Of a stretch of DNA of 64,000 nt, positions 23,163 through 51,316 are shown piece after piece. Source of the stretch: an uncultured Acetatifactor sp. (GTDB lineage: Bacteria; Bacillota; Clostridia; Lachnospirales; Lachnospiraceae); contig CAKRTS010000005.1 of NCBI GenBank assembly GCA_934402315.1, forward strand, positions 1 through 64,000, written 5' to 3'. A model generated the notes under the pieces. It searched no databases, was not told the DNA's origin, and saw only the letters and a list, made by a program, of their open reading frames with translations. Every line of letters begins with the position of its first letter. The first letter of the stretch is position 1. The position numbers and the translations under genes are program-made.

Positions 23163-23340
23163 GCGAAACTCACCTATTTCAGATAACAGCTGCACAGGAT
23201 GCACCTGACCACAAGCAGTGCACTCTAGAGCCGCCGGCACTTACATGGCGTCTTTTGACATGTTATGTGCCGCTGCGAGCGGAAGGTAGCGAGAGCGTGC
23301 CTGCGGTGGTCTGTGCATCCTGCGCAGCGTCACTCGTCAC
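23163..23340 (+). repeat. structured 140-bp repeat, copy A
   Basis: Core 23189-23328. Outer helix: GCTGCACAGGATGCAC...GACCAC pairs with GTGGTC...TGCATCCTGCGCAGC. Inner hairpin: GGCAC/GTGCC and CATG/CATG. A hairpin GGTAGC-GAGA-GCGTGCC has a GNRA loop. Relative to copies B-D the end pair GTTG/CAAC is GCTG/CAGC, a compensatory change. It lies 54 bp upstream of the ABC ATPase start, on the opposite strand. No protein is likely to be encoded. Confidence 0.85.
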
Positions 23341-23353
23341 TTATTACCTACTT

Positions 23354-24418
23354 TTACACCGCCGGTATCCACCCCATCCCCATTGCAAGCGCCACCAGCC
23401 AGATCAGCAGCAGATGCACCGGATAGAATGCATAGAAGAAATACTTCATCTTCAGTCCCCGCTCGCCGTTGTACAACGCAATCGGAATCAGTGCGAAGAA
23501 TGCCGTGATCTCGCTCAGGCTCATGACATTCAGCGTAATACAGCCTGCCAGCATGGATAACACCTTATTTTTACGGAATGCATACATCATCGCAATCGTC
23601 AGGACACCCATTCCCGAGTAATCCGTCTTCAGGAAATCCGCCAACAGCATACCCGCAAACAGTACAAGCGCATAGCTGCCGAGCTTTCCGACCGTTACTG
23701 TCTTCCTGCCCACGCAGAAGATCAGCACAACGAGAAGAATCGCAACGACAGCAATAACTACGCCGATAATAGTCGCCGTGTAAATATCCGTCTCACCAAC
23801 GAGATCCACGCCGCCGCGGAAACCGCGCAGAACCGAAAGCACATAATCCCTCACGCCGCGTTCCATATAGAATACAGCCAATCCAAAGCCCGCCACTGCT
23901 GCAACCGCCTGAAGAACCTTGGAGAAATCCTTTTTGCTGAGGAAATCAATCGCCCAGAGCACAAGAAGCCCGATCAGCAATGTAAAATAAACATTCTGGT
24001 AAGCCCAATTCACGAAGCTTCCCGAAAAAGCAAGGTCAAACGGTATCTCCGAGATCAGACAGAACAGCGCCAGCCGGAAGGCATATTTCTTTACGTTCCG
24101 CGTCTTCTGAAAGCCCTCCACCAGCAGGAAACAGAAGATCGGGAAGCCGAGCCGCCCAATTAACCTCATGAGCTGCGTGCCATAGTACAGAAGCGCATTC
24201 CGTGACAGCCATGCTGCAATCTGCTCCATGTTTCCGCTCCAGATAACGCTGTAATAGTCCCCTGAAAGAATCATTCTGGTAAAGATTGCCGCCGCAACAT
24301 GATCGATCAGCATTGTCACAACCGCGATAATCTTGATAGTGCTCCCTGAAATTCCCTTTTTTTTCTTCTCCTGTGATGTTCCCCCATATGCGGGTTTCTG
24401 CATTGTCATACTATCCAT
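23354..24418 (-). CDS. TraX-family membrane protein
   Basis: 354 residues. A polar N-terminus of ~25 residues is followed by about nine membrane helices. The motif KIIAVVTMLIDHVAA, then LGFPIFCFLLVEGFQKTRNVKKY and SEIPFDLAF are characteristic of the TraX family. The F-plasmid member is linked to pilin N-acetylation; chromosomal Firmicute members have no settled role and may be acyltransferases acting on surface components. It is a single gene flanked by repeat copies A and B. Confidence 0.85.
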   Translation of the reverse strand: MDSMTMQKPAYGGTSQEKKKKGISGSTIKIIAVVTMLIDHVAAAIFTRMILSGDYYSVIWSGNMEQIAAWLSRNALLYYGTQLMRLIGRLGFPIFCFLLVEGFQKTRNVKKYAFRLALFCLISEIPFDLAFSGSFVNWAYQNVYFTLLIGLLVLWAIDFLSKKDFSKVLQAVAAVAGFGLAVFYMERGVRDYVLSVLRGFRGGVDLVGETDIYTATIIGVVIAVVAILLVVLIFCVGRKTVTVGKLGSYALVLFAGMLLADFLKTDYSGMGVLTIAMMYAFRKNKVLSMLAGCITLNVMSLSEITAFFALIPIALYNGERGLKMKYFFYAFYPVHLLLIWLVALAMGMGWIPAV

Positions 24419-24505
24419 TTCTCTCTCCTCATTTCTGTGAACGTTCTTTGCGTGTCAAGTACACGCAGCCACAAATCTCATGATTGAAAATCATGCTAGG
24501 CATTT

Positions 24506-24686
24506 GCGAAACTCACAACTTTCAACTAACAGTTGTGCAGGATGCACCTGACCACAAGCAGCGCACTCTGGAGCCGCCGGCGCTTAGTTCCCGTACTGTG
24601 GGAACTTATGCGTCCGCTGCGTGGAAGCAAAGCGAGAGCGTGCCTGCGGTGGTCTGTGCATCCTGTGCAACGTCACTTGCAAAAAC
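24506..24686 (+). repeat. structured 140-bp repeat, copy B
   Basis: Core 24532-24671. Outer helix: GTTGTGCAGGATGCAC...GACCAC with GTGGTC...TGCATCCTGTGCAAC. Inner hairpin arms are GGCGC/GCGTC and GTTCCC/GGGAAC around a GTACTGT-type loop. The GNRA hairpin is AGC-GAGA-GC. It occupies the 435-bp gap between the TraX gene and the response regulator, 113 bp upstream of the TraX start. The rest of that gap is AT-rich with the terminator at 24799-24839. Confidence 0.87.
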
Positions 24687-24798
24687 GTAAATTTCACAAT
24701 TACCTATTCCTTATTTTCTGTATTATTCAATTAATACAATAATTCATTTGACAATATTTGTCAATGCCCTTATCCGCACTTTATCAGAAATATCGTGC

Positions 24799-24839
24799 AA
24801 AAAAAAAGAACCACACAGACGTCGCCACCCGCATAGTTC
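24799..24839 (-). terminator. response regulator terminator
   Basis: On the minus strand GAACTATGCGGG (24839-24828) pairs with TCTGTGTGGTTC (24819-24808), with several G-U pairs and an 8-nt loop, then nine Ts (24807-24799). Confidence 0.88.
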
Positions 24840-24853
24840 CTTCTTCCCGTTTC

Positions 24854-25549
24854 CTAGCCCACCTTATATCCATTCCCCCAGACTGCCTTAAGGTATCTGG
24901 GCTCTCTCGGATTCTCCTCAATCTTCTCCCGGATATGCCTTACATGGACGGCAATGGTGTTGTCTGCGCCGATCGCCTGCATCTTCCAGATGCTCTCATA
25001 GATCTGGCTATTGGAAAACACCTTTCCTCGCTGCTGCACCAGAAGTCTCAATATCTTATACTCGATCGGAGTCAGCCGCACATTCCTACCATCCACCGTC
25101 ACCGTGCGCTGGGTATCGTCAATCACGAGTCCGTCGATCCGGTAGATTCTGTCTATGTTTTTGCAGACATTGACAAGCTGGGTATAGCGGCGTAGCTGCG
25201 ATTTCACTCTCGCCAGAAGCTCCAGCGGATTGCAGTCCGCCGTCACATAATCGTCCGCCCCCGCCTCAAGCGCCATGATCTTTGCCGTCTCCGCCGACTG
25301 CTTTGACACAACGATCAGCGGGATTGTGCTGGCATGGCGCAGCGCAGCGATCAGTTCAATTCCCTTATCCCAGCCCTTGTCATTCAATGCCACGTCCACC
25401 AACATCAGCTGTATGTCTCTATCCTCAAAGAACCGGCTGATCTCCTCAGCCTCTGCCGCCACGACCATCTCCATTCCCTCGCTGGCAAACAGCGGTTCCA
25501 TCTTCTCCACGATTCCTGTCTGATTATTGTATACCAGTATCTTTCCCAT
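24854..25549 (-). CDS. OmpR-family response regulator with degenerate receiver
   Basis: 231 residues: receiver domain (1-~120) and winged helix (~135-231, LTPIEYKILRLLVQQRGKVFSNSQIYESIW and the recognition helix DNTIAVHVRHIREKI). In the receiver the acidic pair that binds Mg2+ is Asn8-Asn9, and the conserved Lys after GADDYVT is Ala. The acceptor Asp52 remains (MLVDVAL). Phosphorylation by a standard mechanism is therefore doubtful, and it may be an atypical, constitutive or ligand-driven regulator. No histidine kinase is adjacent. It is a single gene with its own terminator, and repeat copy C lies 72 bp upstream. Confidence 0.9.
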   Translation of the reverse strand: MGKILVYNNQTGIVEKMEPLFASEGMEMVVAAEAEEISRFFEDRDIQLMLVDVALNDKGWDKGIELIAALRHASTIPLIVVSKQSAETAKIMALEAGADDYVTADCNPLELLARVKSQLRRYTQLVNVCKNIDRIYRIDGLVIDDTQRTVTVDGRNVRLTPIEYKILRLLVQQRGKVFSNSQIYESIWKMQAIGADNTIAVHVRHIREKIEENPREPRYLKAVWGNGYKVG

Positions 25550-25595
25550 GCCGTCACCCTTTCCTTTCCCTGCATCCTAACTCATCCAGATAATT

Positions 25596-25776
25596 ATGAA
25601 ACTCATTGTTTTCCCGCAACAGTTGTGCAGAATGCACCTGACCACAAGCAGCGCACTCTGGAGCCGCCGGCGTTTAGATGCCGTCCTATGGCATCTTACG
25701 CGCCGTTGCGAGCGGAAGGTAGCGCAAGCGTGCCTGCGGTGGTCTGTGCATTTTGCGCAACGTCACTTGTAAAAAC
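25596..25776 (+). repeat. structured 140-bp repeat, copy C
   Basis: Core 25622-25761. Outer helix keeps pairing though bases differ: GCAGAATGCA with TGCATTTTGC, where copy B has GCAGGATGCA with TGCATCCTGT. Inner hairpin GATGCC/GGCATC, and GGCG/CGCC. The GNRA loop is GCAA. It sits in the 391-bp gap upstream of the response regulator. The rest of the gap holds a short hairpin at 25853-25869 and a terminator at 25886-25907. Confidence 0.87.
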
Positions 25777-25885
25777 CCTAATTTCAATTTAAACAGCTAT
25801 CTCTATTTCTACACTGCCATTGTATCAAAGTTGTATTTTCCATCGAAGCGTGTGCCCTCGGCGCACGCAATAAACACAATAAAAT

Positions 25886-25907
25886 AGAGAGTGATTCAAC
25901 ACTCTCT
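25886..25907 (-). terminator. terminator of the AI-2E family gene
   Basis: AGAGAGTG and CACTCTCT form a perfect 8-bp stem with a 6-nt loop, followed on the minus strand by ATTTTATTG. Confidence 0.7.
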
Positions 25908-25940
25908 ACTTATTTAGACTACTTTTCCCCATGAAAAGTT

Positions 25941-27209
25941 TCAGCCCCGTTTCGTTTTTTTCATTTTTTTGCTGCTATTTTTGCGTTCCCGCTCTTCCAG
26001 CTTTTTCTGTTCAGCTTCCCTGCGCTGCTTTTCTACCGCCTTTGCCGCCTCCTCATTCTGCATCTCCATCTCCTCTACCTCAAACATATCCTCTTTTCCG
26101 AGGTGTCTGAAACGGTTGATACCCGCAACTAAGATCATCACACTGTTCTTTGTCGTCTCGAAAGCGCCCTCCTGGTACATGGAATACACTAACAGCCCCA
26201 GAGGCACGGCGATAATCATACCGATAACGCTTCCAAACTTATAGCCGATGAACAAGAGGAAAAGCGTCGGCAGCGGAGGCACACCCATGGAGTCACCCAC
26301 AATCTTCGGCTGGATCAGCTGTCTTGCCAGCTGTCCGCCGCCCCAGATAATCAGAAGCCCGATCGCCAGCTTGTAATCCGCTGTCAGAATCTTAATGATC
26401 GCCCATGGCACAAGCACGGTTCCCGTACCCAGAAACGGCAGAAAATCCAAAAAGGCAACACCGAGTGCAATGAGTGCAAAGTAGTTCACACGAAGCACGC
26501 CAAGTCCGACCAGAAGCAGCAGATACATCCACACCTCAATTTTCAGCTGCGCCTTGAAGTATCCGCCGACCGAGCGAACCAGACTGTTCCGCATCGTCGC
26601 ATAGCGGAGCTGGATAGATGCCGGTGTATGTTTGCGGAACCATTCGTTGATCAGTCCCCTCTCTGCGACAAAGAAGTATGAGGAGAGAAGCGCCATGATG
26701 ATACCGATGAATATGGACGGAAGCTGCTTTGCCAGATTTCCCGCTGCCGCGATGGTCGGTGTTCCGATCTTGCCCATAAACTCGCCGACGTAACTGCCGA
26801 TCTGCGCCGCAAAGTCATTGACCTTCAGCTGTGCTTCTCCCGGAAGCTTTGCCAGCAATACATTCAGGGACTTCCCGATCTCCGCAAGATCCGCCTCCAT
26901 GCTCTTCCACATTCCGGGAAGGGAACCGATCAGTCCGATAACCTGCTCCACCAGCTGCGATATGACAAGATATCCCAGCAGGACGATCAGTGCAATAACC
27001 ACCACGATGACAAAAGCGCTGCCGATCTTACGCTTGATCTTTACCTTCTCCTCAAAGAAACGCACCAGCGGGCTGGCAATCAGTGCAATGATCCAGCCTG
27101 CCACGAACGGCGCAAAGAAAACAATCACCTTCGGCAGAAGGATGACTGCCGCCAGAAGCAGCACGATTGCAACCGCAATATTGACTAAGGCTTTACTGTA
27201 CTTCTTCAT
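25941..27209 (-). CDS. AI-2E/PerM family membrane protein
   Basis: 422 residues. Two N-terminal membrane helices, a central cytoplasmic region (about 60-210) and a cluster of C-terminal helices (about 230-345) follow the AI-2E transporter family pattern, as do LDFLPFLGTG and QPKIVGDSMGVPPL. The family includes sporulation protein YtvI and ion or autoinducer exporters, so the substrate is open. A highly charged tail (residues ~375-422, rich in Lys and Glu) extends beyond the family. The ATG at 27209 has GGAGGGGAAC before it and overlaps the ysxC stop by 17 bases, implying coupling. Confidence 0.85.
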   Translation of the reverse strand: MKKYSKALVNIAVAIVLLLAAVILLPKVIVFFAPFVAGWIIALIASPLVRFFEEKVKIKRKIGSAFVIVVVIALIVLLGYLVISQLVEQVIGLIGSLPGMWKSMEADLAEIGKSLNVLLAKLPGEAQLKVNDFAAQIGSYVGEFMGKIGTPTIAAAGNLAKQLPSIFIGIIMALLSSYFFVAERGLINEWFRKHTPASIQLRYATMRNSLVRSVGGYFKAQLKIEVWMYLLLLVGLGVLRVNYFALIALGVAFLDFLPFLGTGTVLVPWAIIKILTADYKLAIGLLIIWGGGQLARQLIQPKIVGDSMGVPPLPTLFLLFIGYKFGSVIGMIIAVPLGLLVYSMYQEGAFETTKNSVMILVAGINRFRHLGKEDMFEVEEMEMQNEEAAKAVEKQRREAEQKKLEERERKNSSKKMKKTKRG

Positions 27210-27810
27210 GTTCCCCTCCCTGTTCCTCCTCCAGAATGCCATCCAGTATCTCGTAGATCTCCTCACGCCCCTGCTTGCTCTCCGCCGAAAAAGGAATCAG
27301 CACGGCTCCCTCTTCGGTGTGGAGCGTCGTCCGGATCAGCTTCAGCTGCTTCTGGATCTGGCTCCTGTTGATTTTATCCAACTTTGTCGCTATGATGATC
27401 GGGTGATAGCCGTTGCTTAAGATCCAGTCGTACATGGTTCTGTCATTCTCCGACGGCGCATGGCGGATGTCCACAAGAAGGAACACCGCCTTCAACTGCC
27501 GTGACTTGTGCAGGTACCTCTCGATCATCTTTCCCCACTGAACCTTGACCGACTCACTCACCTTTGCAAAGCCATAGCCCGGCAGATCGACGAAATAAAT
27601 CGCATCGTTGACATTATAGTAGTTGATCGTCTGCGTCTTTCCCGGCTGGGCACTGGTTCTCGCAAGCGATTTGCGGTTCATCAGCGCATTGATCAGCGAA
27701 GATTTTCCGACATTGCTCTTTCCGGCAAAAGCCACCTCCGGCAGCGAATTATCCGGCAGCTTGCTCGTAATGCCGCACACCGTCTCCAGACTCACATTCT
27801 TAATGATCAT
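27193..27810 (-). CDS. ysxC: ribosome biogenesis GTPase YsxC (EngB)
   Basis: 205 residues. G1 GKSNVGKSSL, G3 DLPGYGFA and G4 TKLDK are in place, and the N-terminus and total length match the family. YsxC/EngB is an essential GTPase of large-subunit assembly. It follows clpX, the usual order clpP-clpX-(lon)-ysxC in Firmicutes; lon is not present here. Confidence 0.95.
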   Translation of the reverse strand: MIIKNVSLETVCGITSKLPDNSLPEVAFAGKSNVGKSSLINALMNRKSLARTSAQPGKTQTINYYNVNDAIYFVDLPGYGFAKVSESVKVQWGKMIERYLHKSRQLKAVFLLVDIRHAPSENDRTMYDWILSNGYHPIIIATKLDKINRSQIQKQLKLIRTTLHTEEGAVLIPFSAESKQGREEIYEILDGILEEEQGGEHEEVQ

Positions 27811-27831
27811 ACTTTTCCCTTTCTGTCAAAG

Positions 27832-27856
27832 AGAGCGCCGCATAAAACGGCGCTCT
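27832..27856 (-). terminator. hairpin between clpX and ysxC
   Basis: AGAGCGCCG and CGGCGCTCT form a perfect 9-bp GC-rich stem with a 7-nt loop, followed by only TTTGAC on the minus strand. It may be a weak terminator that lets some transcription reach ysxC. Confidence 0.55.
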
Positions 27857-27879
27857 ATTAACACAGGCTTCCACCTGAG

Positions 27880-29154
27880 CTAAATTGCAGTATCCAGCTT
27901 TTTCCTGCCCTCGCCCCTATGAATGACCACCGGTTCACATTCCTCGTCCACGACAGCCTTCGTAATGATGCATTCCTCGATCGACTCATCCGAGGGGATT
28001 CTGTACATGATGTCCATCAGCACGCTTTCCATGATGGAACGCAGACCTCTCGCACCGGTCTTTCTCTCGAACGCCTTGTCGGCAATCGCCTCCACCGCAT
28101 CAGCCTCAAAGGTCAGTTCCACATTGTCCATGTCAAACAGCTTCTTATACTGCTTGATCAGTGCATTCTTGGGCTCCTTTAAGATACGGATCAGCGCTTC
28201 TCTGTCCAGTCCGCGCAGCGTGACACTGATCGGCACACGTCCCACAAATTCGGGAATCAGTCCGAACTTGACAAGATCCTGCGGAGTCACCTCCTGCAGA
28301 AGGTCGCTGATCTCCTTGTTGGTCTTCTGGGAGACCTCCGTGTTAAAGCCGATCGCCTTGCGGTCAAGACGCGCCTCCACGATCTTCTCCAGTCCGTCAA
28401 ACGCTCCGCCACAGATGAACAGGATGTTTGACGTGTCAATGTTAATCAGTTCCTGATGGGGATGCTTTCTTCCACCCTGGGGCGGAACACTCGCAATGGT
28501 TCCCTCGACGATCTTCAACAGCGCCTGCTGAACGCCCTCGCCGGAAACATCTCTTGTAATTGAGACATTTTCTCCCTTTTTCGTAATCTTATCGATCTCG
28601 TCAATATAGATGATGCCATACTGGGCACGCTCGACATCATAGTCCGCCGCCTGAATCAGCTTCAGCAGAATATTTTCCACATCCTCGCCGACATAGCCTG
28701 CCTCTGTCAGTGTCGTCGCATCCGCGATTGCAAAAGGCACGTTGATGATCTTCGCCAGCGTCTGCGCCAGATAGGTCTTACCGGACCCAGTCGGTCCGAC
28801 CATAATGATATTGCTCTTCTGCAGCTCCACCTCATCGAGATCCTTCGGCGCCGTAACGCGCTTATAGTGGTTATACACTGCTACCGACAATACCTTCTTT
28901 GCCTCGTCCTGTCCAACGACATACTCATCCAGAAAATTCTTGATCTGCATAGGCTTTAACAGATTGATCTCCGCCTGAGTAGTCTCCTGAACTGCGTCAT
29001 CCTCAAGTTCCTCCTCCAGAATGTCCGCACAAATATCAATACATTCATCACAGATATACACTCCGGCGGGACCCGCGATCAGCTTGCGAACCTGACTCTG
29101 GGTCTTATTGCAGAAGGAACATCTTATTTCATTGCCGTTCATTTTCGATGCCAT
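27880..29154 (-). CDS. clpX: ATP-dependent Clp protease ATP-binding subunit ClpX
   Basis: 424 residues. An N-terminal zinc-binding domain (Cys12, Cys15, Cys35, Cys38) is followed by an AAA+ module with Walker A GPTGSGKT, the pore loop GYVGED and Walker [11 protein letters not shown]. The ClpP-binding IGF-type loop (KAIGFNTE) is present. ClpX unfolds proteins and feeds them to ClpP. It lies 17 bases after clpP. Confidence 0.98.
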
Positions 29155-29171
29155 TCTTTAACTCCTAAAAA

Positions 29172-29762
29172 TTATTTTGTGTCGTGAGAGCTGATAACCT
29201 TGTCGATCAGGCCGTATGCCATTGCCTCGTCAGCGCTCATCCAGTTGTCACGCTCTGTGTCTGCGCATACTGTCTCGTAATCCTTGCCGGAATTTTCAGC
29301 GATCATACGATTCAGTTTTTCCTTGGTCTTCAAAATATGTCTTGCTGCAATCTCAATTTCCGTAGCCTGTCCCTGAGTTCCGCCAAGAGGCTGATGGATC
29401 ATGATTTCCGCATTGGGCAGAGCATATCTCTTTCCCTTTGCGCCACCGTTCAACAGGAAAGCGCCCATGCTGGCAGCCATTCCGATACATACGGTAGACA
29501 CATCGCATTTAATATACTGCATGGTATCATAAATTGCAAGACCCGCCGTCACAGAACCTCCCGGGCTGTTAATGTAGAGATGGATGTCCTTCTCCGGGTC
29601 CTCCGCCTCAAGGAAGAGCAGCTGGGCAACCACAATGCTTGCAGAAGTATCCGTCACCTCTTCTCCCAGGAAAATAATTCTGTCCTTCAAAAGTCTGGAA
29701 TAAATATCGTAAGATCTTTCACCTTTGCTTGTCTGTTCAATGACGTAAGGCACTAAACTCAT
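29172..29762 (-). CDS. clpP: ATP-dependent Clp protease proteolytic subunit ClpP
   Basis: 196 residues. Catalytic triad Ser98 (GMAASMGA), His123 (MIHQPLGG) and Asp172. Full length with the processing-region N-terminus. Forms the tetradecameric chamber served by ClpX. It has its own promoter, separated from tig by a terminator, and is first in a clpP-clpX transcript. Confidence 0.98.
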
Positions 29763-29811
29763 ATCAGAATCCTCCGTTCTGTCCTTTATTCTGTAAAAAT
29801 ATACCTTTCTT

Positions 29812-29840
29812 ATATTATCCTACCGGAACACGTTTTTCAA
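29812..29840 (-). promoter_or_regulatory. candidate clpP promoter
   Basis: TTGAAA (29840-29835) and TAATAT (29817-29812) with a 17-bp spacer on the minus strand, about 50 bases before the clpP start. No CtsR heptad repeat is evident. Confidence 0.55.
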
Positions 29841-29881
29841 TGCATTCGGTACGAATTAATAAAAATTTAAACTCTGTTATC

Positions 29882-29918
29882 AAAAACGGCTGCGCTCCTT
29901 TGTTCCGGAGTGCAGCCG
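29882..29918 (-). terminator. tig terminator
   Basis: On the minus strand CGGCTGCACTCC and GGAGCGCAGCCG form a 12-bp stem with one G-U pair and an 8-nt loop, followed by TTTTTG. Confidence 0.9.
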
Positions 29919-29939
29919 CTCATATTATCCTGAAGTATT

Positions 29940-31310
29940 TTATGCTTCCTCGCTGTTCTCCTCAGCAGGAGCCTCATCCTTTGCCTTCCTGGTGGTCTTC
30001 TTTGCAGCAGTCTTCTTAGGCTTGTCTTCCTTTGCATTCTCCACAACGAACTCAACCGCCTTCTTGATGCAGAGGTCGTCCATAACCTGCTTCTTGCCGT
30101 TCTCTCCGAGAAGCTCCTTAACCTTGTCAGCCTCCATCTGGTAAACCTCAGCCATGGTCTTAACTTCCTCTTCAAACTCTTCCTCGGAAGCAACCATCTT
30201 CTCAGCAGCGGCAACTGCCTCGAGAACCAGTCTGGACTGGATTCTCTTCAATGCCTGGGGCTTTAACTGCTCCATCAGCGCCTGGGAGGTCATGCCGGTA
30301 AACTGCATGTACTGCTCCATGCTGATGCCCTGGGACTGCATTCTCTGTGCATAGTCCTGAAGCATCTGTCTCTGCTGGGTCTCAACCATCGCATCGGGAA
30401 TATCCATCTTCGCGTCCTCGATGATTGCATCGATAACTGCGTCTTCCTTCTTATTCTTTGCCTCAGTTTCCTTTCTGCCGGCGAGCTTCTTTCTGATCTC
30501 TTCCTTATACTCGTCAACAGTATCGCTCTCCTCGGAAACCTCGCCGACGAAATCCTCGTCCAGCTCAGGGAGCTGCTTCTCCTGAAGCTTCTTTACTGTG
30601 CACTTGAACACAGCAGCCTTTCCTGCAAGCTCTGCCGCCTGATAATCCTCAGGGAAGGTAACGTTTACTTCTGTCTCCTTGCCTGTCTCGGCGCCGATCA
30701 GCGCGTCCTCAAAGCCGGGAATGAATGCGCCGGAACCGATTGTCAGAGGATAGTCTGTTCCCTTGCCGCCCTCAAAGGCAACTCCGTCCACAAAGCCCTC
30801 GAAATCAATTGTTGCAATATCACCGGACTGTACTGCTCTGTCTGTAATATCAACAGTTCTGGAGTTCTTCTCTCTCTCCTTGTCAACCTCTGCGTTAATC
30901 TCATCATCCGTAACGGTGGTGTCAGCCGCTTCCACCTTGACACCCTTATACTTTCCAAGAGTAACCTCCGGCTTCAGAGCGACCTCAGCCGTGAAAATGA
31001 AAGGCTTTCCTGCCTCAACCTGTGTAACCTCAACCTTGGGAGAGGATACGATGTCCTCTGTGCACTCCTCCAGAGCCTTCTCATAAGCGTCCGGAATCAG
31101 ATCGTTTACGGCATCCTCGTAGAATACTTCCTTGCCGTACATCTGCTCGATCATCTTTCTGGGAGCCTTGCCCTTGCGGAAGCCGGGGATGTTGATCTTA
31201 TTCTTGTTCTTCTGGTAAGCGCCTTCGATAGCCTTTTCCAGCTCCTCAGCAGGGACCTCAATGGTCAGCTTCGCCATATTGTTCTCTAATTTTTCTACCT
31301 GTAAACTCAT
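29940..31310 (-). CDS. tig: trigger factor (ribosome-associated chaperone and prolyl isomerase)
   Basis: 456 residues. The ribosome-binding signature GFRKGKAPRKMIEQ lies near residue 45, the FKBP-type PPIase domain follows (VQSGDIATIDFEGFVDGVAFEGGKG), then the helical C-terminal domain. A lysine- and glutamate-rich tail of about 30 residues extends past the usual end. The ATG at 31310 follows GGAGG; a start 17 codons earlier has no site. Has its own promoter and terminator, upstream of clpP as in many Firmicutes. Confidence 0.97.
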   Translation of the reverse strand: MSLQVEKLENNMAKLTIEVPAEELEKAIEGAYQKNKNKINIPGFRKGKAPRKMIEQMYGKEVFYEDAVNDLIPDAYEKALEECTEDIVSSPKVEVTQVEAGKPFIFTAEVALKPEVTLGKYKGVKVEAADTTVTDDEINAEVDKEREKNSRTVDITDRAVQSGDIATIDFEGFVDGVAFEGGKGTDYPLTIGSGAFIPGFEDALIGAETGKETEVNVTFPEDYQAAELAGKAAVFKCTVKKLQEKQLPELDEDFVGEVSEESDTVDEYKEEIRKKLAGRKETEAKNKKEDAVIDAIIEDAKMDIPDAMVETQQRQMLQDYAQRMQSQGISMEQYMQFTGMTSQALMEQLKPQALKRIQSRLVLEAVAAAEKMVASEEEFEEEVKTMAEVYQMEADKVKELLGENGKKQVMDDLCIKKAVEFVVENAKEDKPKKTAAKKTTRKAKDEAPAEENSEEA

Positions 31311-31417
31311 TGTTACATTTCCTCCTTCAAGTTGCTGTGCTTCGTTCCTTCGCTTCTCCATCGCCGCAAGTCTGCACCCAAAGACCGCATTTCACACACA
31401 GCCACAGTCATTTTAAG

Positions 31418-31447
31418 ATTATAGCACGAAAACCTTTGTTTTGTCAA
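31418..31447 (-). promoter_or_regulatory. tig promoter
   Basis: TTGACA (31447-31442) and TATAAT (31423-31418), an 18-bp spacer, both boxes perfect. The -35 box overlaps the stop codon of the preceding transporter gene. Confidence 0.88.
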
Positions 31448-32733: not shown

Positions 32734-32749
32734 AACGTACCCTCTTTAC

Positions 32750-33742: not shown

Positions 33743-33790
33743 ATTCTCCTCATTTCCGCCGACCGTTTTTCCGGCTCTTTTTCTGCGCAC

Positions 33791-41735: not shown

Positions 41736-41748
41736 CTCTCAAATCTCC

Positions 41749-42651: not shown

Positions 42652-42693
42652 CTTAACTCAAACCCTCCATTCTTTGGTCTCTTAAATACTTTC

Positions 42694-43716: not shown

Positions 43717-43850
43717 AGTTCTTTCCACTCTTTTTTTGCTCTCAGATTCAAGTATAGCATATTCCCTTTTTTTCGGGAAGATATAATTTTATTTTTTAAT
43801 ATAACAAAAGACCCCCGAAGGAGCCTTCTGTAAATTCAATCGCTATTTTC

Positions 43851-45788
43851 TTACGCCAGCGCCGTGTTTCCCGTGTAGAGCTGGTAATACTTGCCCTTCT
43901 GTTCGATGAGCTGGTCGTGGGTGCCTCGCTCGATGATGCGTCCCTGCTCAAGGACGATGATGCAGTCACTGTTTCTGACGGTCGAAAGCCTGTGGGCAAT
44001 GACGAAGTTGGTACGCCCCTTCATCAGTGCGTCCATGCCCTGCTGTACGAGCTTCTCTGTTCTGGTATCGATGGAGCTGGTCGCCTCATCCAGAATCAGC
44101 ACCGGCGGATCGGCGATTGCCGCCCTTGCGATGGCGAGTAGCTGTCTCTGCCCCTGGCTCAGGTTCGCCCCGTCGCCGTGGAGCATCGTGTTATAGCCGT
44201 CCGGCAATCTGCGGATGAAGCCGTCCGCATTGGCGAGCTTCGCGGCTCTGATAACCTCCTCATCCGTCGCATCCAGCTTGCCGTAACGGATATTCTCCAT
44301 AACATTGCCCGTAAACAGGTGGGTATCCTGCAAAACGATTCCGAGGGATCTTCTCAGATCATCCTTTTTGATCTTATTAATATTGATTCCGTCATAGCGG
44401 ATCTTTCCGTCCTGAATGTCGTAGAAACGGTTGATCAGGTTCGTGATCGTCGTCTTGCCCGCGCCGGTCGCACCGACAAAGGCAATCTTCTGTCCGGGCT
44501 TTGCATACAGTTCAATGTCGTGCAGGATCATCTTGTCATCGTTATAACCGAAATCGACATGATCGAAAACCACATCGCCCATCAGCTGTCTGTAGGTCGT
44601 GGTGTCGGTGTCCTTATGATAATGCTTCCATGCCCAGAGACCGGTTCTCTCGCTGCTCTCCGTCAGCTCGCCGCGTGCATCCTGCTTTGCATTCACCAGC
44701 TCGACATAGCCTTCATCTACCTCCGGCTTCTCGTCCATGAGTCCGAAGATTCTCTCCGCTCCGGCAAGCGCCATGATGATGCTGTTCAGCTGCATACTGA
44801 TTTGGTTGATTGGCATGCTGAAGGACTTATTCAGGTTCAGGAAGCTCGCCAGTCCGCCGAGTGACAGCCCGGAGATTCCGGTCAGCGTCAGAAGCGCGCC
44901 GGAAACCGTGCAGACCACATAGCTCAAATTGCCGAGCTGTGCATTGACAGGCCCCATAATATTCGCAAACTTGTTCGCCGAATTTGAACTCTCATACAGG
45001 GCGTCATTCAATTCGTTGAACTGCTCGATGCTCTCCTGCTCATGACAGAATACCTTGACGACCTTCTGTCCCGTCATTCCCTCCTCGATACAGCCGTTCA
45101 GCTTTCCGAGGTCACGCTGCTGCGCAAGGAAGAACTTACTGCTCTGGGAGCCGATCTTCTTTGCGGCAACGATCATGATTGCAACCATCGCAAGGGTGAT
45201 GAAGGTCAGCGGAATATCCAGAATGAACATGGAAAACAGCGTGCCGACAACCGTAATCAGGCTGTTGATGAACTGCGGTATGCTCTGGCTTATCATCTGC
45301 CGCATGGTATCAATATCGTTTGTGTAAATTGACATGATGTCGCCGTGCGCATGGGTGTCAAAATATTTGATCGGCAGCTTCTCCATCTTTTCAAACAGGT
45401 CATCGCGCAGCCGCTTCATCGTGCCCTGCGTCACGTAGATCATCAGTCTCGACTGTGCAAATGCGGCAAAAACACCCAAGCCGTAAAAGCACGCCACCCT
45501 GCCGATTGCGCCGGCAAGAGGGCCGAAATCCGGGTTCCGGTTTCCCAGAAGCGGAACGATATAGTCATCGATCAGGGTACGCATGAACATGGTTCCCTGC
45601 AGGGATGCAAACACATTGACAAAAATACAGATCACAACGATGATCCAGTGGATCGCATAATCCTTAAAGGTATATCCGAGCATTCTCTTTAACAGCTTTC
45701 CCGGATTTTCAATCTTCGGTCTGGGGCCTCTCGCGCCTCTCGGTCCGCCCGGTCCCTGATTCACCTTCGGCTTTCTCTCTTCCGCCAT
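43851..45788 (-). CDS. ABC exporter half-transporter with canonical ATPase site
   Basis: 645 residues. A Gly/Pro/Arg-rich N-terminus, six membrane helices, then the ATPase: Walker A GATGAGKTT, signature LSQGQRQLLAIARA, Walker B VLILDEATSS with catalytic Glu, His switch AHRLST. The transmembrane-nucleotide linker holds an insertion of about 60 residues (around 370-425). It pairs with the preceding half-transporter to form a heterodimeric multidrug or lipid exporter of the BmrCD/TM287-288 type. Two bases separate the genes. MarR control is likely. Confidence 0.92.
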   Translation of the reverse strand: MAEERKPKVNQGPGGPRGARGPRPKIENPGKLLKRMLGYTFKDYAIHWIIVVICIFVNVFASLQGTMFMRTLIDDYIVPLLGNRNPDFGPLAGAIGRVACFYGLGVFAAFAQSRLMIYVTQGTMKRLRDDLFEKMEKLPIKYFDTHAHGDIMSIYTNDIDTMRQMISQSIPQFINSLITVVGTLFSMFILDIPLTFITLAMVAIMIVAAKKIGSQSSKFFLAQQRDLGKLNGCIEEGMTGQKVVKVFCHEQESIEQFNELNDALYESSNSANKFANIMGPVNAQLGNLSYVVCTVSGALLTLTGISGLSLGGLASFLNLNKSFSMPINQISMQLNSIIMALAGAERIFGLMDEKPEVDEGYVELVNAKQDARGELTESSERTGLWAWKHYHKDTDTTTYRQLMGDVVFDHVDFGYNDDKMILHDIELYAKPGQKIAFVGATGAGKTTITNLINRFYDIQDGKIRYDGININKIKKDDLRRSLGIVLQDTHLFTGNVMENIRYGKLDATDEEVIRAAKLANADGFIRRLPDGYNTMLHGDGANLSQGQRQLLAIARAAIADPPVLILDEATSSIDTRTEKLVQQGMDALMKGRTNFVIAHRLSTVRNSDCIIVLEQGRIIERGTHDQLIEQKGKYYQLYTGNTALA

Positions 45789-45790
45789 GA

Positions 45791-47539
45791 TTACATACCT
45801 CCCTTCTCGTCGAAGTCACCGTTGCCGCTGGTCTGCGACTCATATACTTCACGGTAGATTTCGTTTCCTGCGAGCAGCTCCTCATGTGTTCCGAAGCCGT
45901 CGATCTGTCCTTCGTTCAGGACGATAATCCTGTCGGCATGCTCCACACTGGAAATACGCTGCGCAATAATGAGCTTTGTCGTCCCGGGAATTTCCTCCGC
46001 AAAGGCCTTTCTGATCTTTGCGTCCGTCGCCGTATCGACTGCGCTCGTCGAGTCATCGAGGATCAGTATCTTCGGCTTTTTCAGCAGCGCCCTCGCAATA
46101 CAGAGCCTCTGTTTCTGACCGCCGGAAACGTTCGTGCCGCCCTGCTCGATATAGGTCTCATAGCCGTCCGGCATCTTCCGGATGAACTCATCCGCGCAGG
46201 CGAGTTCACATGCCTTCCTGCACTCTTCCTCTGTCGCGTTCTTGTCACCCCAGCGCAGATTCTCCAGAATCGTTCCCGAAAACAGCACATTATTCTGGAG
46301 CACAACCGCCACCTGGTTTCTCAGAACCTCCATATCGTAGTCTCGCACATCCACGCCGCCCACGAGCAGTCTGCCGTCCGTCACATCATACAGTCTGCTG
46401 ATCAGATTGACGAGACTGGACTTCGCGCTTCCCGTTCCGCCGACAATACCGATGGTCTCGCCGGACTTAATTTCCAGATTGATGTCCTTCAGCACGGGTG
46501 TGTCCGCATTTTTCTTATAGCTGAAATTGACATGGTCAAAGCAGATACTGCCGTCCTTTACTTCAAATAGGGGCTTTTCGGGATTTGCCAGCTCCGGCTT
46601 CTCCTCCAGCACCTCGCAGACACGTCTTGCGCTTGCGACAGACATCGTAATCATGACGAAGATCATGGACAGCATCATCAGATTCATCAATATCGTCATG
46701 CAGTAGGTCAGCAGGCTCATCAGCTGTCCTGTCGTCAGCTGATCCTGTACGATCATATGGGCGCCGATCCATGAGATCAGTATGATGCAGGCATATACGG
46801 CAAGGCTCATCACCGGGCTGTTCCATGCGACAATTCCCTCCGCCTTGCAGAAGATTTTGTAGATATTTTCGCTTGCCTTTTTAAACTTCTTGTTCTCGTA
46901 ATCCTCGCGGACATAAGCCTTGACAACGCGGATCGCGGAAACATTCTCCTGGACACTCTCGTTCAGGTCATCATACTTTGGAAACGCCTGATTGAAATGC
47001 CTGGTTGCATTTCCGACGATGATTGCCAGAACCACGCCAAGAAGCAGCACGGCGATCAGATAGATGCTTGCAAGTCTCGGGCTGATATAAAAGGACATGA
47101 GCATCGCAAAGATCAGGCTGAACGGCGCTCTCATCGCCATTCTCAACATCATCTGATAAGCGTTCTGGATGTTGGTCACATCCGTTGTCAGTCTTGTCAC
47201 AAGACCGGAGGTACTGAACTTATCAATGTTGGAAAAGCTGAAGGTCTGTATGTTTTCATACATCGCCTTCCGCAGATTTCTGGCAAAGCCCGTCGATGCC
47301 TTTGCACCGAACACGCCTCCGCCGATCCCGAACATCAGGCTGCACACTGCCGTCAGCAGCATCAGCCCGCCCGCAAGGTAAATATTCTTCATATCACCCT
47401 TATTGACACCTTCGTCGATAATGAATGCCATCAGCATCGGAATAATCATCTCCATGATGACCTCACCGATCATAAACAGCGGTGTCGCAATGGAAGCCTT
47501 CTTAAATTCCTTTATCTGGGCTCCAAGTGTTTTCAGCAT
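45791..47539 (-). CDS. ABC exporter half-transporter with degenerate ATPase site
   Basis: 582 residues. Six membrane helices, then Walker A GGTGSAKSS (Gly to Ala), signature VSGGQKQRLCIARA, Walker B ILILDDSTSA, with Asp in place of the catalytic Glu, and AQRIS in place of the His switch. One degenerate and one canonical site is the hallmark of heterodimeric exporters, the partner being the next gene. The start overlaps the marR stop by seven bases. Confidence 0.92.
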   Translation of the reverse strand: MLKTLGAQIKEFKKASIATPLFMIGEVIMEMIIPMLMAFIIDEGVNKGDMKNIYLAGGLMLLTAVCSLMFGIGGGVFGAKASTGFARNLRKAMYENIQTFSFSNIDKFSTSGLVTRLTTDVTNIQNAYQMMLRMAMRAPFSLIFAMLMSFYISPRLASIYLIAVLLLGVVLAIIVGNATRHFNQAFPKYDDLNESVQENVSAIRVVKAYVREDYENKKFKKASENIYKIFCKAEGIVAWNSPVMSLAVYACIILISWIGAHMIVQDQLTTGQLMSLLTYCMTILMNLMMLSMIFVMITMSVASARRVCEVLEEKPELANPEKPLFEVKDGSICFDHVNFSYKKNADTPVLKDINLEIKSGETIGIVGGTGSAKSSLVNLISRLYDVTDGRLLVGGVDVRDYDMEVLRNQVAVVLQNNVLFSGTILENLRWGDKNATEEECRKACELACADEFIRKMPDGYETYIEQGGTNVSGGQKQRLCIARALLKKPKILILDDSTSAVDTATDAKIRKAFAEEIPGTTKLIIAQRISSVEHADRIIVLNEGQIDGFGTHEELLAGNEIYREVYESQTSGNGDFDEKGGM

Positions 47540-48054
47540 TTGTCACACTCCCTTTCTCTTTCTTCCTCTCCGTCCTGCTCCGGATGGGAACTACGTTCTT
47601 CCAGTTCCTCCTGGAATTCCTCCAGATTCTGAAAAACCACATCCAGCAGCCGATGCAGTTCCTCCACCTCGCCGTCGCTTAAGCCCTCTGTCATGCGGCG
47701 GTCAAGCATATCCATATGCTCCTCGATCTTCTTATGCCCCTGCATTGCCTCCTCTGTCATTTGTATGCGCTTCAGTCTCGCGTCACGATCGACAGCCTTG
47801 CGGACAATCAGCCCGTTTTTTTCCATGACCTGAAGGGTGTTTGTCGCCGTTGCCCGGGAAATGCGGAATTCCTTCTCAATATCTCTCTGGTACACCGGTT
47901 GATCCTGATGATGGTACAGATAGCCAAGAATGCCGCCCTGCAGCTGGGACTGCGGCGCCTTTTCAAAATGAGGAGCGCTTCTATGGATGATGCACTTGAT
48001 CTGGTTATGGAGAACTCTCAGCTTGAATGCAAGCCGCCTGTCTTTCTGCTCCAT
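47533..48054 (-). CDS. MarR-family transcriptional regulator
   Basis: 173 residues. A winged-helix DNA-binding domain: QRDIEKEFRISRATATNTLQVMEKNGLIVRKAVDRDARLKR includes recognition helix and wing. Ends in an acidic tail. It precedes and overlaps the two exporter genes, and two palindromic sites lie just upstream, so it most likely represses the operon until a drug or metabolite binds. Confidence 0.93.
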   Translation of the reverse strand: MEQKDRRLAFKLRVLHNQIKCIIHRSAPHFEKAPQSQLQGGILGYLYHHQDQPVYQRDIEKEFRISRATATNTLQVMEKNGLIVRKAVDRDARLKRIQMTEEAMQGHKKIEEHMDMLDRRMTEGLSDGEVEELHRLLDVVFQNLEEFQEELEERSSHPEQDGEEERERECDKC

Positions 48055-48081
48055 AATCTCCTCCTTTTTTGCTCCAAAAAA

Positions 48082-48145
48082 ATGTTAGTGCGCTAACCTT
48101 TATTGTTAGCACACTAACATTATCACTTTGACTTTCCTTTGTCAA
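48082..48145 (-). promoter_or_regulatory. marR-exporter promoter with paired palindromic operators
   Basis: TTGACA (48145-48140) and TAATGT (48122-48117), spacer 17 bp. GTTAGCACACTAAC (48105-48118) overlaps the -10 box and GTTAGTGCGCTAAC (48084-48097) lies in the leader. Each is a palindrome, and together 48082-48097 and 48105-48120 are an inverted repeat with one mismatch. Strong candidate sites for the MarR protein. Confidence 0.85.
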
Positions 48146-48156
48146 CACCCTATTTT

Positions 48157-49317
48157 CTATTCCCACAGCGGTGCAAAGCTGATGTCGAGATCGACATCCG
48201 TGGAAATTCCGGCAACCCTTCCCTTATCCGAATACTGCCAGATTTTATACTCATATGGGTAAAACATCTGGTCACTGTAGCTGGCATACCACTTGTCGTA
48301 ATCCTCCAGTGCTGCGACATCAATCATCAGTGCCCCCATCTCCGTGTTGTGGTAGATCATGGGTTTATATCCCGCCGCCTGTATCGTCTGGCAGAACAGT
48401 GCCGTCAGCTGTGTTCTCTCCTCCACCGAAATGTTGTTCATCCGGCCGTCCTTGCTGGTCTTCTCCACATCATAGACCACAGGGCATTCAATTTTGTAAG
48501 GGGCAATCTTCTCAAGCACCAGATTTGCCTCCTCCATCAGTTCCTCCGTTGTGATCGCCTGACTGAAAAAGTAAACTCCGACCTTGATGCCTGCTGCGGA
48601 TGCTCCTTTGATATTGTCCTCAAACTTCGTGTCCTCGACCAGCTTTCCCTCGCTGCCGTAGCCGCGGTAACCGAGGCGGATGATGGCAAATTCCACACCG
48701 TCCTGCGCAACCTGCTTCCAGTCGATGTCGCCCTGATGGCTGGAGACGTCAATCCCCTTGTGTGAGGTCACCTGTCCGTCCGTCAGATACTGATATTCAC
48801 CGTTCTCCAATATGTTCAGATTTGCCACATCCAGCTGATTCAGCTTCAGTTCCCTGTTTATGGGTACAAAATGGAACCTTCCGCCGCTGACCACCACAAT
48901 ATCGTCCGGGTAATAGGGGCGCAGCGTCTCAACCGTTGTCGTCCCACCGGAAAGCGCCTCCTTTATCCCATCCAGAATCCGGTCTGCCTCCGCGTCCTGC
49001 GCCTGCGTGACCGCCTGACTGATCATCTCGTCCAGTTCTGCCTGCGAATAGACCACTGCGCCGGAAATTGCCTCCACGGAATCCTGCCCCGCCTCACCAT
49101 CACCCGTGACAGCTGCCGGTCCGGCATTCCCGTCGTGTTGCGTCATTCTTTCATATAGCGTCATTCCACCGTACATGACCGCAACGAGAAACACCAGACA
49201 TCCGAGCATGGCTAAGCCAACGCCGATTACGGAAGTCCGCCGTCTGTTTTTTCTCGCCCTGCGAAGCCTCTCTTCTCTCTCTCTGTTCCCGCTGTTCCTG
49301 ATATCGTCTGTCTGCAT
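48157..49317 (-). CDS. membrane-anchored GH25 muramidase-like protein
   Basis: 386 residues. A basic N-terminus, one membrane helix (about 30-52), a stalk, and a GH25 domain from ~185: GIDVSSHQGDIDW, the acidic pair VYDVEKT, and WQYSDKGRVAGISTDVDLDIS. GH25 enzymes cut peptidoglycan between MurNAc and GlcNAc. Likely extracellular, acting on the cell's own wall. It is a single gene; a TATATT-like -10 lies near 49360 but no clear -35. Confidence 0.9.
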   Translation of the reverse strand: MQTDDIRNSGNREREERLRRARKNRRRTSVIGVGLAMLGCLVFLVAVMYGGMTLYERMTQHDGNAGPAAVTGDGEAGQDSVEAISGAVVYSQAELDEMISQAVTQAQDAEADRILDGIKEALSGGTTTVETLRPYYPDDIVVVSGGRFHFVPINRELKLNQLDVANLNILENGEYQYLTDGQVTSHKGIDVSSHQGDIDWKQVAQDGVEFAIIRLGYRGYGSEGKLVEDTKFEDNIKGASAAGIKVGVYFFSQAITTEELMEEANLVLEKIAPYKIECPVVYDVEKTSKDGRMNNISVEERTQLTALFCQTIQAAGYKPMIYHNTEMGALMIDVAALEDYDKWYASYSDQMFYPYEYKIWQYSDKGRVAGISTDVDLDISFAPLWE

Positions 49318-49507
49318 ATGTCTCTCCCATCTGACTGCCGGATTAAAACTATATTAATATAACTATTCAGAGCCCACATTCGCAAAAACGCCTCTGCGAG
49401 ACTTTCTTTTTGCTCATGTGCCTTTCGCCATATGAATAATTACATCTTAACCGATATTGTCCGATAGGAAAAGCGGAAATAAATAGTTTTTATAAAATCT
49501 TAAGGCT

Positions 49508-50275
49508 TCAGCCTCCTGCGCGTTCTCTCAGCCGCAGCAGGATCTTCTTTTCCAGTCTGCTGACCTGAACCTGACTGATCCCGAGAATCGACGCGATCTC
49601 CATCTGTGTCTTGTTCTGGAAATAGCGCATGGAGATCAGTTCCCGCTCTGACGGGTTCAGCGTATCCAACAGCTGGGTCAGGAGCAGATGATTCAACAGC
49701 TCCTCCTTCTCGGTATCTTCCCCGCCGATGCTTCCAGCCATGCTGCTGCCCACGCTGCCGTTCACTCCGCGCACTACCCTGTCCACCAGATAGACCTCGC
49801 TGCCGTCATCCTGATAGACAGCGCTGTAGATAGACTCCACCTCTATGGATGCCTCCATGGCGACGACGACATCCTCCTTCGTCAGCCCCGTCGCCTCAGT
49901 GATCTCCTGCAGGGTTGGCTCTCTGCCCTCCGCCGCCTGCAGCTTCTGTCTGGCAAGCTTGACCTTCAGCCCGTTTTCCTTGATTGTCCTCGACACCTTC
50001 ACCGGACCGTCGTCTCTCAGGAACCGCTTGATCTCACCTGTGATCATCGGTACGGCATAGGTGGAAAACTGCAGTCCCAGCTCCAGATTAAATTTATCGA
50101 TCGCCTTCATCAGACCGATCGTGCCGATCTGAAAGAGATCCTCCTGCTCATATCCCCTTCCTGCAAAGCGCCTTACAATATGGTGGACAAGTCCGAGATT
50201 TTTTTCTATCAGTACTTCTCTTGCATCCTTTTCTCCTGCCTGTGACCTTGCGATCAGTACTGACGTCTCCTCCAT
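49508..50275 (-). CDS. sigF: sporulation sigma factor SigF (SpoIIAC)
   Basis: 255 residues, standard. Region 2 (YEQEDLFQIGTIGLMKAIDKF, FSTYAVPMITGEIKRFLRD), region 3 and a region 4 helix-turn-helix (KTQMEIASILGISQVQVSRLEKKIL) are intact. Controls early forespore transcription. It is two bases after spoIIAB. A Ser/Gly-rich insertion (about residues 173-188) sits between regions 3 and 4. Confidence 0.97.
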   Translation of the reverse strand: MEETSVLIARSQAGEKDAREVLIEKNLGLVHHIVRRFAGRGYEQEDLFQIGTIGLMKAIDKFNLELGLQFSTYAVPMITGEIKRFLRDDGPVKVSRTIKENGLKVKLARQKLQAAEGREPTLQEITEATGLTKEDVVVAMEASIEVESIYSAVYQDDGSEVYLVDRVVRGVNGSVGSSMAGSIGGEDTEKEELLNHLLLTQLLDTLNPSERELISMRYFQNKTQMEIASILGISQVQVSRLEKKILLRLRERAGG

Positions 50276-50277
50276 GC

Positions 50278-50772
50278 CTAATCCTCTCTGTCTATCCAGT
50301 CACCGACCCCTATTTTCTTTTTCATGCGCACTGTCGTTCCCTTCCCCGGTTCGCTCTCCACCTCAAGATCATCCATGAAGGCTTCCATGAAGGCGAAGCC
50401 CATGCCCGACCGCTCCAGCTCCGGCTTCGTCGTGAACAGCGGCTCCATCGCCTGTTCGAGATTACTGATCCCCTTGCCGGTGTCAGTGACCTCAATATGT
50501 AGCACCTCCCCCTCCATCCGGCAGAACACTCTGACCTTGCCGGGATTGATATGTGCCTTGTCCGCAGGCTGTCCCTTCACGCCGCCGTAACCGTACAGAT
50601 TCTCATAGCCGTGTATGATGGAATTTGTCACCGCCTCGGACACCGCGGTCTTCACATCCGCCAGCTCCTCAAGCGTCGGGTTCGCGCCTGCGGCAAATGC
50701 CGATACCGCCACCCGGGCTAAGCCCTCGTTATCAGAAACCGCGTCAAACAGAAGCTCCATTTCGTTATTCAT
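50278..50772 (-). CDS. spoIIAB: anti-sigma F factor SpoIIAB
   Basis: 164 residues. GHKL ATPase/kinase fold: [18 protein letters not shown] (N box), [21 protein letters not shown] (G1 box) and [14 protein letters not shown] (G2 box). Holds sigma F and phosphorylates SpoIIAA. About 20 residues longer at the C-terminus than the B. subtilis protein. The start overlaps the spoIIAA stop (ATGA). Confidence 0.97.
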
Positions 50773-51092
50773 GACTCCAGTACCTCCACAATTCTTTCTA
50801 AACCGGATATTGTAAGTATCCTTCTGATCTGCCTGTCTGCGTGGATCACATAGATATGCCCGCCAAAGCAGGATATTTTCCGATGCCGTCCCATAATGAT
50901 CCCGATTCCCGAGGAATCCATAAACCTCGTGTTCTCGAAGTCAAAGACCACGTTGCTGACATCATCGCGGCATAGCAGCCTGTCCGCATTCTCACAGATG
51001 AATCCCGCCCTGTGGTGATCCACCTCCTCCGGTAGCCGTATCATCAGGCAGTTATCGATCACCTGAAAATCCTCGGTCGTAATCTGTTCCAT
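50769..51092 (-). CDS. spoIIAA: anti-sigma F factor antagonist SpoIIAA
   Basis: 107 residues, a STAS domain. [20 protein letters not shown] contains the serine phosphorylated by SpoIIAB. Releases sigma F when unphosphorylated. The ATG at 51092 follows GGAGAAGGG; the frame continues 31 codons into repeat copy D without support. First gene of the spoIIA operon; a sigma-H promoter is expected but I could not fix one. Confidence 0.96.
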
Positions 51093-51135
51093 ACACTCAC
51101 CCTTCTCCTCTCCAATTTTAGCGATTATAAAAAAC

Positions 51136-51316
51136 AGGAAATCCATCAATTTCAGGAAACAGTTGTACAAGATGCACCTGACCACAAGCAGTGCACTCTG
51201 GAGCCGCCGGTGCTTAGCTGACGTACTTTGGCAGCTTACGCACCGTTGCGTGCGGAAGGTAGCGAAAGCGTGCCTGCGGTGGTCTGTGCATCCTGTGCAA
51301 CGTCACTTGCAGAAAC
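51136..51316 (+). repeat. structured 140-bp repeat, copy D
   Basis: Core 51162-51301. Outer helix GTTGTACAAGATGCAC...GACCAC with GTGGTC...TGCATCCTGTGCAAC, with one A-C mismatch. Inner hairpin GGTGC/GCACC and GCTG/CAGC. The GNRA loop is GAAA. It fills most of the 308-bp gap between spoIIAA and the TPR gene, 69 bp upstream of the spoIIAA start, about 25 kb from the other copies. Confidence 0.87.

Follow-up and report, generated by a model that had tools for sequence, protein, structure and literature searches.

The window analysed here is a stretch of 64,000 nucleotides from an uncultured Acetatifactor sp. of the Lachnospiraceae (assembly GCA_934402315.1, contig CAKRTS010000005.1, positions 1 to 64,000, forward strand). 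It contains four copies, A to D, of a palindromic non-coding repeat, each located between − strand genes (those for an ABC ATPase, a TraX-family protein, a response regulator, an AI-2E transporter, a STAS-domain protein and a TPR protein). A preliminary description, made from the sequence by eye, had placed four structured 140-bp cores at these sites. This was borne out: each copy, read 140 nt from its start, has complementary ends, and the + strand of each (146-nt pieces) folds with z = −4.9 to −7.2, none of 200 shuffles per copy being as stable. Copies A, B and C were also recovered as one direct-repeat family. The whole elements are longer than 140 bp, at ∼200–215 bp including degenerate terminal inverted repeats (by eye). 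The ends of copy B are the best preserved in the window and delimit 210 bp, compared with elements of 206–227 bp in other genomes. The window holds four copies in all; four further model matches are the same sites read on the opposite strand. Bit scores below refer to covariance model R2, the construction of which is given after the list.

23189..23328, + strand: hairpin of copy A, 140 bp, with outer helix and conserved core; GNRA mini-hairpin at 23289–23296 with a GAGA loop; 68.7 bits
23153..23350, + strand: copy A with degenerate terminal inverted repeats TAAGATAACTGCGAAACTCAC ... TTATTACCTA, set by eye against the ends found in relatives
24532..24671, + strand: hairpin of copy B, 140 bp; GNRA mini-hairpin at 24632–24639 with a GAGA loop; 60.2 bits
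24497..24706, + strand: copy B with terminal inverted repeats TAGGCATTTGCGAAACTCAC ... AATTTCACAATTACCTA, 210 bp, by eye
25622..25761, + strand: hairpin of copy C, 140 bp; GNRA mini-hairpin at 25722–25729 with a GCAA loop; 69.0 bits
25587..25795, + strand: copy C with strongly degenerate ends CAGATAATTATGAAACTCAT ... AATTTCAATTTAAACA, by eye; right limit approximate
51162..51301, + strand: hairpin of copy D, 140 bp; GNRA mini-hairpin at 51262–51269 with a GAAA loop; 72.3 bits
51118..51332, + strand: copy D with degenerate ends TTAGCGATTATAAAAAAC ... ATCTCTTACCTAA, by eye

To search for relatives, a covariance model (R1) was built from the four window copies and used at E ≤ 0.01. Starting loci were the best 80 of at least 502 confirmed EngB relatives, mostly from Lachnospiraceae or Acetatifactor and at most 84% identical. 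R1 matched 15 of the 21 genomes tried, and those 21 genomes underlie 21 of the 80 EngB loci. One hundred copies with their flanks were then collected, and a second model (R2) was built from 32 core sequences that included the four window copies. R2 matched 123 of 299 Lachnospiraceae genomes (∼41%; E ≤ 0.001), with 13 candidates scored per genome; the sample was drawn from the family of genome G004 (Acetatifactor muris) and is assigned to the Lachnospiraceae on that basis. Matches were found in 45 of 61 genomes of the genus of G011, and one genome gave at least 66. Across the class, at the stricter E ≤ 1e-6, 7 of 291 genomes matched, five of which were already in the family sample (the other two are G496 and G537). 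The element is therefore concentrated in, and may be confined to, the Lachnospiraceae. The covariance-model search proposed in the preliminary description thus returned many copies from this family, mostly intergenic, and the existence of a structured family concentrated in the Lachnospiraceae can be considered firm.

None of the four copies matched Rfam 15 at the gathering threshold, the only match in the window being a T-box elsewhere, so the family also stands as one without an Rfam counterpart at that threshold. At E ≤ 10, copies A to C gave a single overlapping weak match (17 bits, against a gathering score of 70), and at E ≤ 1, 15 related loci gave four matches, none of them credible (one T-box outside the element and three far below their gathering scores). 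A narrow arm pattern taken from the window had no matches in genome contigs or viral contigs, because the arms are lineage-specific. The core pattern in a single exact form had none in viral contigs; blastn of copy B found nothing among plasmids and phages, and blastn of the four copies against the 80 best EngB loci gave a best E of 0.2. No description of the element was found in the main texts of open-licence papers.

The conserved part of the hairpin is a core of ∼76 nt on the window's + strand, flanked by variable arms. From the outside inward, the end of the arm (P1) is followed by CC/GG (P1b) and then by a helix, P2, that ends in CG-Y-CGG / CCG-YU-R-CG, where YU is an unpaired two-nucleotide bulge. 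Beyond P2 lie a three-pair step, a U·U internal loop and an apical stem (P4) of any sequence, longer in some genomes (e.g., G008 and G011), with a loop that is mostly 7 nt and reads GTNYTNT. A side mini-hairpin, P3 (GC-GNRA-GC), is located at the junction on the 3′ side, between P2 and P1. Per-position counts were made on 117 aligned matches from 100 chosen sources. In the GNRA loop, G is present in 115 of 117, and R and the final A in all 117; N is variable. T37 and T38 (UU) are likewise present in 117 of 117. One P2 pair is C–G in 55 copies and T–A in 46, with no other state among the 101 of 104 copies that could be parsed by pattern, and is mismatched once in the 117 aligned matches. Specific unpaired core bases are kept over at least 26 genomes.

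Pairing was evaluated on the 32 sequences of R2; note that the structure was derived from these same sequences, which favours it. Paired cells amount to 88.2%, compared with 29.9–42.4% for slid partners, covariation is 0.544 versus 0.186 (reached by 0 of 500 shuffles), and double changes occur at 30 of 36 pairs. The covariation anticipated in the preliminary description thus exceeds both the shuffled and the slid controls on four measures out of the five; on the remaining one, further standard pair types, it does not (61 versus 66.4 in shuffles; 486/500). Within the window, the alternation of GTTG/CAAC in B, C and D with GCTG/CAGC in A is exactly as had been described. The change to GCAGAATGCA in C opposite TTTT was only partly upheld, as one pair is fully compensated (G–C to A–T) and its neighbour is a one-sided G·T wobble. 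Over the outer 20 pairs, the six copy-versus-copy comparisons contain 7 mirrored changes, 2 uncompensated double changes and 11 one-sided changes, so the four window copies by themselves are weak evidence.

The arms of most of the 104 copies are inverted repeats of 25–60 bp that differ between copies (the script stopped at 60 bp); in L337 they are much longer, and mirrored, on both sides. Among 141 copies, 21 within-genome pairs have cores with at most two differences, and their arms carry 96 mirrored, 22 one-sided and 11 uncompensated changes; the pairs in G003, G008, G127 and G131 have 8 one-sided changes and no mirrored ones. For the G289 lineage, 222 comparisons with at most one core change, none of them recognised as same-locus, give 1127 mirrored, 285 one-sided and 45 uncompensated changes in 5772 arm pairs, but these comparisons overlap and are not independent. 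Seven same-locus comparisons leave 176 of 182 arm pairs unchanged, with 1 mirrored and 5 one-sided changes. This set leaves out the first copy in L463 versus L472 (2 mirrored changes), since L463 has two copies and it is the other one that matches the locus. In the same seven comparisons the ∼76-nt cores carry 5 changes in total, with flanks 0.9–8.3% apart, and from these alignments purifying selection seems to act on the core of resident copies. Mirror-fashion rewriting is seen in L467/L428, a same-locus pair of greater divergence (right flank 90.7%).

Arms thus seem to mutate one-sidedly over short times and to differ by mirrored changes over longer times. Template switching together with selection explains both, and copying of one arm from the other is favoured because length changes are mirrored too. 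The proposal that mirrored change occurs only upon copying of the element is not proven, given the rewriting of L467/L428 at one locus and the single mirrored change in the seven close comparisons. An origin of the arms from the target site was rejected, since constant motifs flank the variable arms on both sides and every left arm in G011 is G-rich (by eye). What had been taken for a 5′ domain in the G289 lineage turned out to be a second, unrelated palindromic repeat that stands beside only some copies; it has a centre of its own (..TCGTCCCATAGCGCC..), apparently conserved, between long arms, and lies upstream of the hairpin in L334, L474, L438 and L429. The preliminary description had taken compensatory change as a sign of selection on structure. 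Mirrored arm changes can also arise by template switching, and wobbles in the distant arms are nearly balanced between the strands; the case for selection rests on the core.

Strand choice can be judged from the core. The GNRA loop is present only on the + strand. Near the core, G·T exceeds A·C in P1 (44/13), P1b (6/0), P3 (2/1) and P4 (15/2), for a total of 67/16 by our own sums over the 117 matches. With RNA parameters, the + strand is the more stable one in 117 of 141 copies. In DNA, too, a GNRA loop closed by a GC stem is stable. There is no lock to a replication strand, GC skew being positive at 63 of 141 copies. On these sequence features RNA from the + strand is favoured: the active form of the core would be a single strand, derived from the + strand and folded, and somewhat more probably RNA than anything else, with single-stranded DNA well behind and a double-stranded protein site slightly less probable again. 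The joint use of GNRA loops and G–U pairs as criteria for strand choice has a precedent in the available text of PMC2864571.

The route of spread is suggested by the ends. In G008, G015, G078, G172, G618 and G640 the hairpin lies inside ends like TAGGNNNTTGCGAAAC, which are degenerate in the window and in G020. With one mismatch allowed, the end pattern was found 35 times in G008, 21 in G020, 5 in G015, and once each in G001 and G004 (backward control: 1, 1, 4, 0 and 1, respectively). G020 carries a 1.74-kb insertion sequence (IS) with TAGG..TTGCGAAAC-type ends, one of them at a contig end, that encodes a 501-aa DUF772 transposase (PF05598, 53.7 bits). Locus L255 has a perfect 10-bp target duplication. 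Duplications of at least 80% identity flank 3 of 9 core-bearing copies (shuffled null mean 0.48, maximum 3), and in two core-less elements with the same ends they measure 10 and 12 bp. The core is also found in other genomes with different surroundings, often with ACAG at the left foot and CGTC at the right foot. The window type has likely spread in the fashion of a miniature inverted-repeat transposable element (MITE). The preliminary description would have given up the family as new on a match to an insertion-element family; such a relation was found for the ends, which are MITE-like and related to an IS1182-like element, but not for the core.

Core-less elements of 142 bp with TAGG..TTGCGAAAC ends, a long palindrome and a different centre were also seen in G020 (L227, L229, L237, L243, L244, L251 and L252, the last with a 10-bp duplication). 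Two identical-core copies in L410 were considered as a composite transposon, and this was dropped because the intervening open reading frames (ORFs) look like ordinary chromosomal genes (by eye). Empty sites in G657 and G658 are only apparent and represent deletion derivatives; the copy at L401 in G618 had no match in 20 relatives.

Taken together, we estimate at roughly 0.58 the probability that the window copies belong to a large, dispersed, non-autonomous palindromic family, similar to MITEs and to repetitive extragenic palindromes (REPs), with IS1182-type spread, a folded + strand core under selection and arms that are recopied. Under the mechanism proposed, window-type copies would be MITEs that depend for movement on an IS1182-like DDE transposase, which would act in trans on their TAGG..TTGCGAAAC ends, and lineages lacking such ends would have spread by another route. 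The + strand core would fold as a single strand, most likely RNA, and be kept by purifying selection at resident loci. As for the arms, template switching during replication would rewrite one from the other, and pairing would be selected for, giving mirror-image change over time. The leading guess for the fold is a REP-like hairpin that, in transcripts, might limit read-through or decay around the insertion. A more specific version is tentative, and we would not favour it at present: that the core is a selected, family-specific structured module (probably RNA), present in tens of copies per Lachnospiraceae genome, combined with several unrelated element ends and held by purifying selection at each resident locus while its arms are rewritten as exact mirror images. 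If this were true, the module would be a bacterial repeat of a new architectural class, in which compensatory evolution by template switching is naturally recorded.

Several observations count against the main interpretation. No target duplication was seen at the window copies, the ends of which are degenerate, and TAGG-type ends were not recognised in the copies of G003, G004, G005, G011, G021 and G289. The G020 transposase falls below the cut-off of the IS1182 model (82.1 of 270 bits). The shuffled null for target duplications reached 3 at least once, and two of the nine tested ends look spurious. For strand choice, the P2 helix is reversed, with A·C (35) above G·T (16), in part at two pairs that seem to be out of register in the alignment. 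In the distant arms the two are close to parity (181 G·T versus 151 A·C in 104 copies), and DNA parameters also favour the + strand in 97 of 141 copies (4 ties), leaving room for single-stranded DNA. Finally, the same-locus comparisons are few, three of them share one locus, and one close comparison shows mirrored change at short distance.

Neighbouring genes on the − strand are as follows.

22377..23240, − strand: ABC transporter ATPase gene (PF00005, 99.6 bits), 3′ of copy A on the gene's strand; ORF as listed, the true start probably being at ∼23137
23354..24418, − strand: TraX-family gene between A and B (PF05857, 147.5 bits)
24854..25549, − strand: response regulator gene between B and C (PF00486, PF00072)
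50769..51185, − strand: STAS-domain gene downstream of D (PF01740, 55.9 bits), which from its neighbourhood we take to be SpoIIAA-like; the ORF as listed begins within D, a start that is probably too early

The element occurs in many copies, most of them intergenic, and no particular gene family accompanies it; 21 of 104 copies overlap an ORF of at least 90 codons (naive caller). A riboswitch-like leader acting in cis on downstream genes would suit the window, where each of the four copies precedes a − strand gene on its 5′ side. However, relative to those genes the structured strand is the antisense one, no neighbour family recurs (the largest cross-genome cluster has 6 loci in 6 genomes, among 163 loci), and gene orientation around 104 copies is mixed (35 −/−, 33 +/+, 21 +/−, 12 −/+ and 3 incomplete, with a simple ORF caller), so that a leader is most implausible. 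A domesticated transcription insulator or terminator-like element, in which the hairpin limits read-through at gene ends, is unlikely but draws on the G011 copies, of which 18 of 20 follow a + strand gene and 10 of 20 lie between convergent genes, many being just past terminator-like hairpins with T tracts (by eye). As a rule no T tract follows the hairpin itself, and orientation preference varies by genome, being −/− for 9 of 13 copies in G008 and for all four in the window, and +/+ for 8 of 13 in G005.

Two further explanations were considered. If the copies were dead MITEs, their palindromes would be maintained solely by template switching and the core would have no function. Mirrored changes, indels included, and arms balanced in G·T and A·C speak for this, but template switching cannot enforce the specific unpaired core bases, and the core is little changed at shared loci; we therefore consider it quite unlikely. 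Very unlikely is a REP or REPIN-type (paired-REP) element moved by a RAYT (REP-associated) tyrosine (Y1) transposase. Such elements are palindromic, extragenic and in many copies, as here, and close copy pairs are divergent in 13 of 14 cases (1 tandem; own count). Among the 4-mers at the right foot of the arms CGTC ranks first (29 of 121 copies, 10 of 25 genomes), and in the window it comes after the arm in each of the four copies (by eye). Against this, Y1_Tnp (PF01797) occurs in 7 of the 15 element-rich genomes and in 10 of the 15 that lack the element, some assemblies being incomplete, so there is no association with the RAYT partner characteristic of GTAG REP/REPINs. The CGTC repeats described in the available text of PMC3733652 have stems of 8–9 bp and loops of 4–5 bp.

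Our preferred reading, that of a dispersed MITE- and REP-like palindrome with a selected core, can be compared with these systems directly. Like the bacterial MITEs covered in the available passages of PMC10969869, the element is short, non-coding and dispersed in many copies, has terminal inverted repeats (shared with an autonomous element, the G020 IS) and would have stably folding transcripts; target duplications are near 10 bp in fresh relatives. It differs in having a complex conserved core common to elements with different outer sequences. The passages found in that review do not mention Clostridia, Lachnospiraceae or IS1182. With the GTAG and CGTC superfamilies of REP/REPIN, as treated in the available text of PMC3733652, it shares extragenic palindromes in many copies and pairs in opposite orientation, and with the CGTC repeats also the presence, in some copies, of CGTC at one foot and the lack of a dedicated transposase. 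REPs, at 20–40 bp with a short stem and loop (same source), differ from this family of at least ∼140 bp with a junction and a GNRA side hairpin. The same text places the CGTC species that it lists in five other phyla and contains neither “Firmicutes” nor “Clostridi”. Hairpins maintained by template switching show similar mirrored, multi-base compensatory stem changes in the available text of PMC8794818, which differs in reporting a mutation mechanism for RNA genes, not a repeat family. The main text of PMC8040213, which does not contain “Lachnospir”, counts 250 palindromic sequences among 3161 candidate structured RNAs of human microbiomes, and the hairpin family could be among them. The element is a variant of MITE- and REP-like dispersed palindromes.

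If the prevalence of ∼41% holds, with dozens of copies in some genomes, this would be a prominent non-coding element of common gut bacteria with no Rfam 15 match. It bears on the open question of how long stems keep perfect pairing: selection and template switching can be told apart with the help of copies that have equal cores and mirrored arms, and of copies at one locus in related species.

Copies occur at the very ends of contigs in G649 (C38, C50, C52, C61 and C72), G127 (C13 and C50) and G618 (C7, C21 and C35). The repeat is therefore a probable cause of breaks in short-read assemblies, and the copy counts are too low. Tandem arrays with a spacing of ∼187–189 bp were seen at G131:C21:12429-12903 (L329) and G644:C107:14034-14324. 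The G011 copies found just past terminator-like hairpins are among L151–L170, and the left arms of those printed are G-rich. Elsewhere in the window, the T-box leader (RF00230, 96.7 bits; 58744–58988, − strand) lies directly before a valyl-tRNA synthetase gene (ORF 56027–58747; PF00133, PF10458), and the adjoining − strand ORFs 59074–60024 and 60265–61179, which have no Pfam match, are 90% identical over 316 aa and represent a recent tandem duplication.

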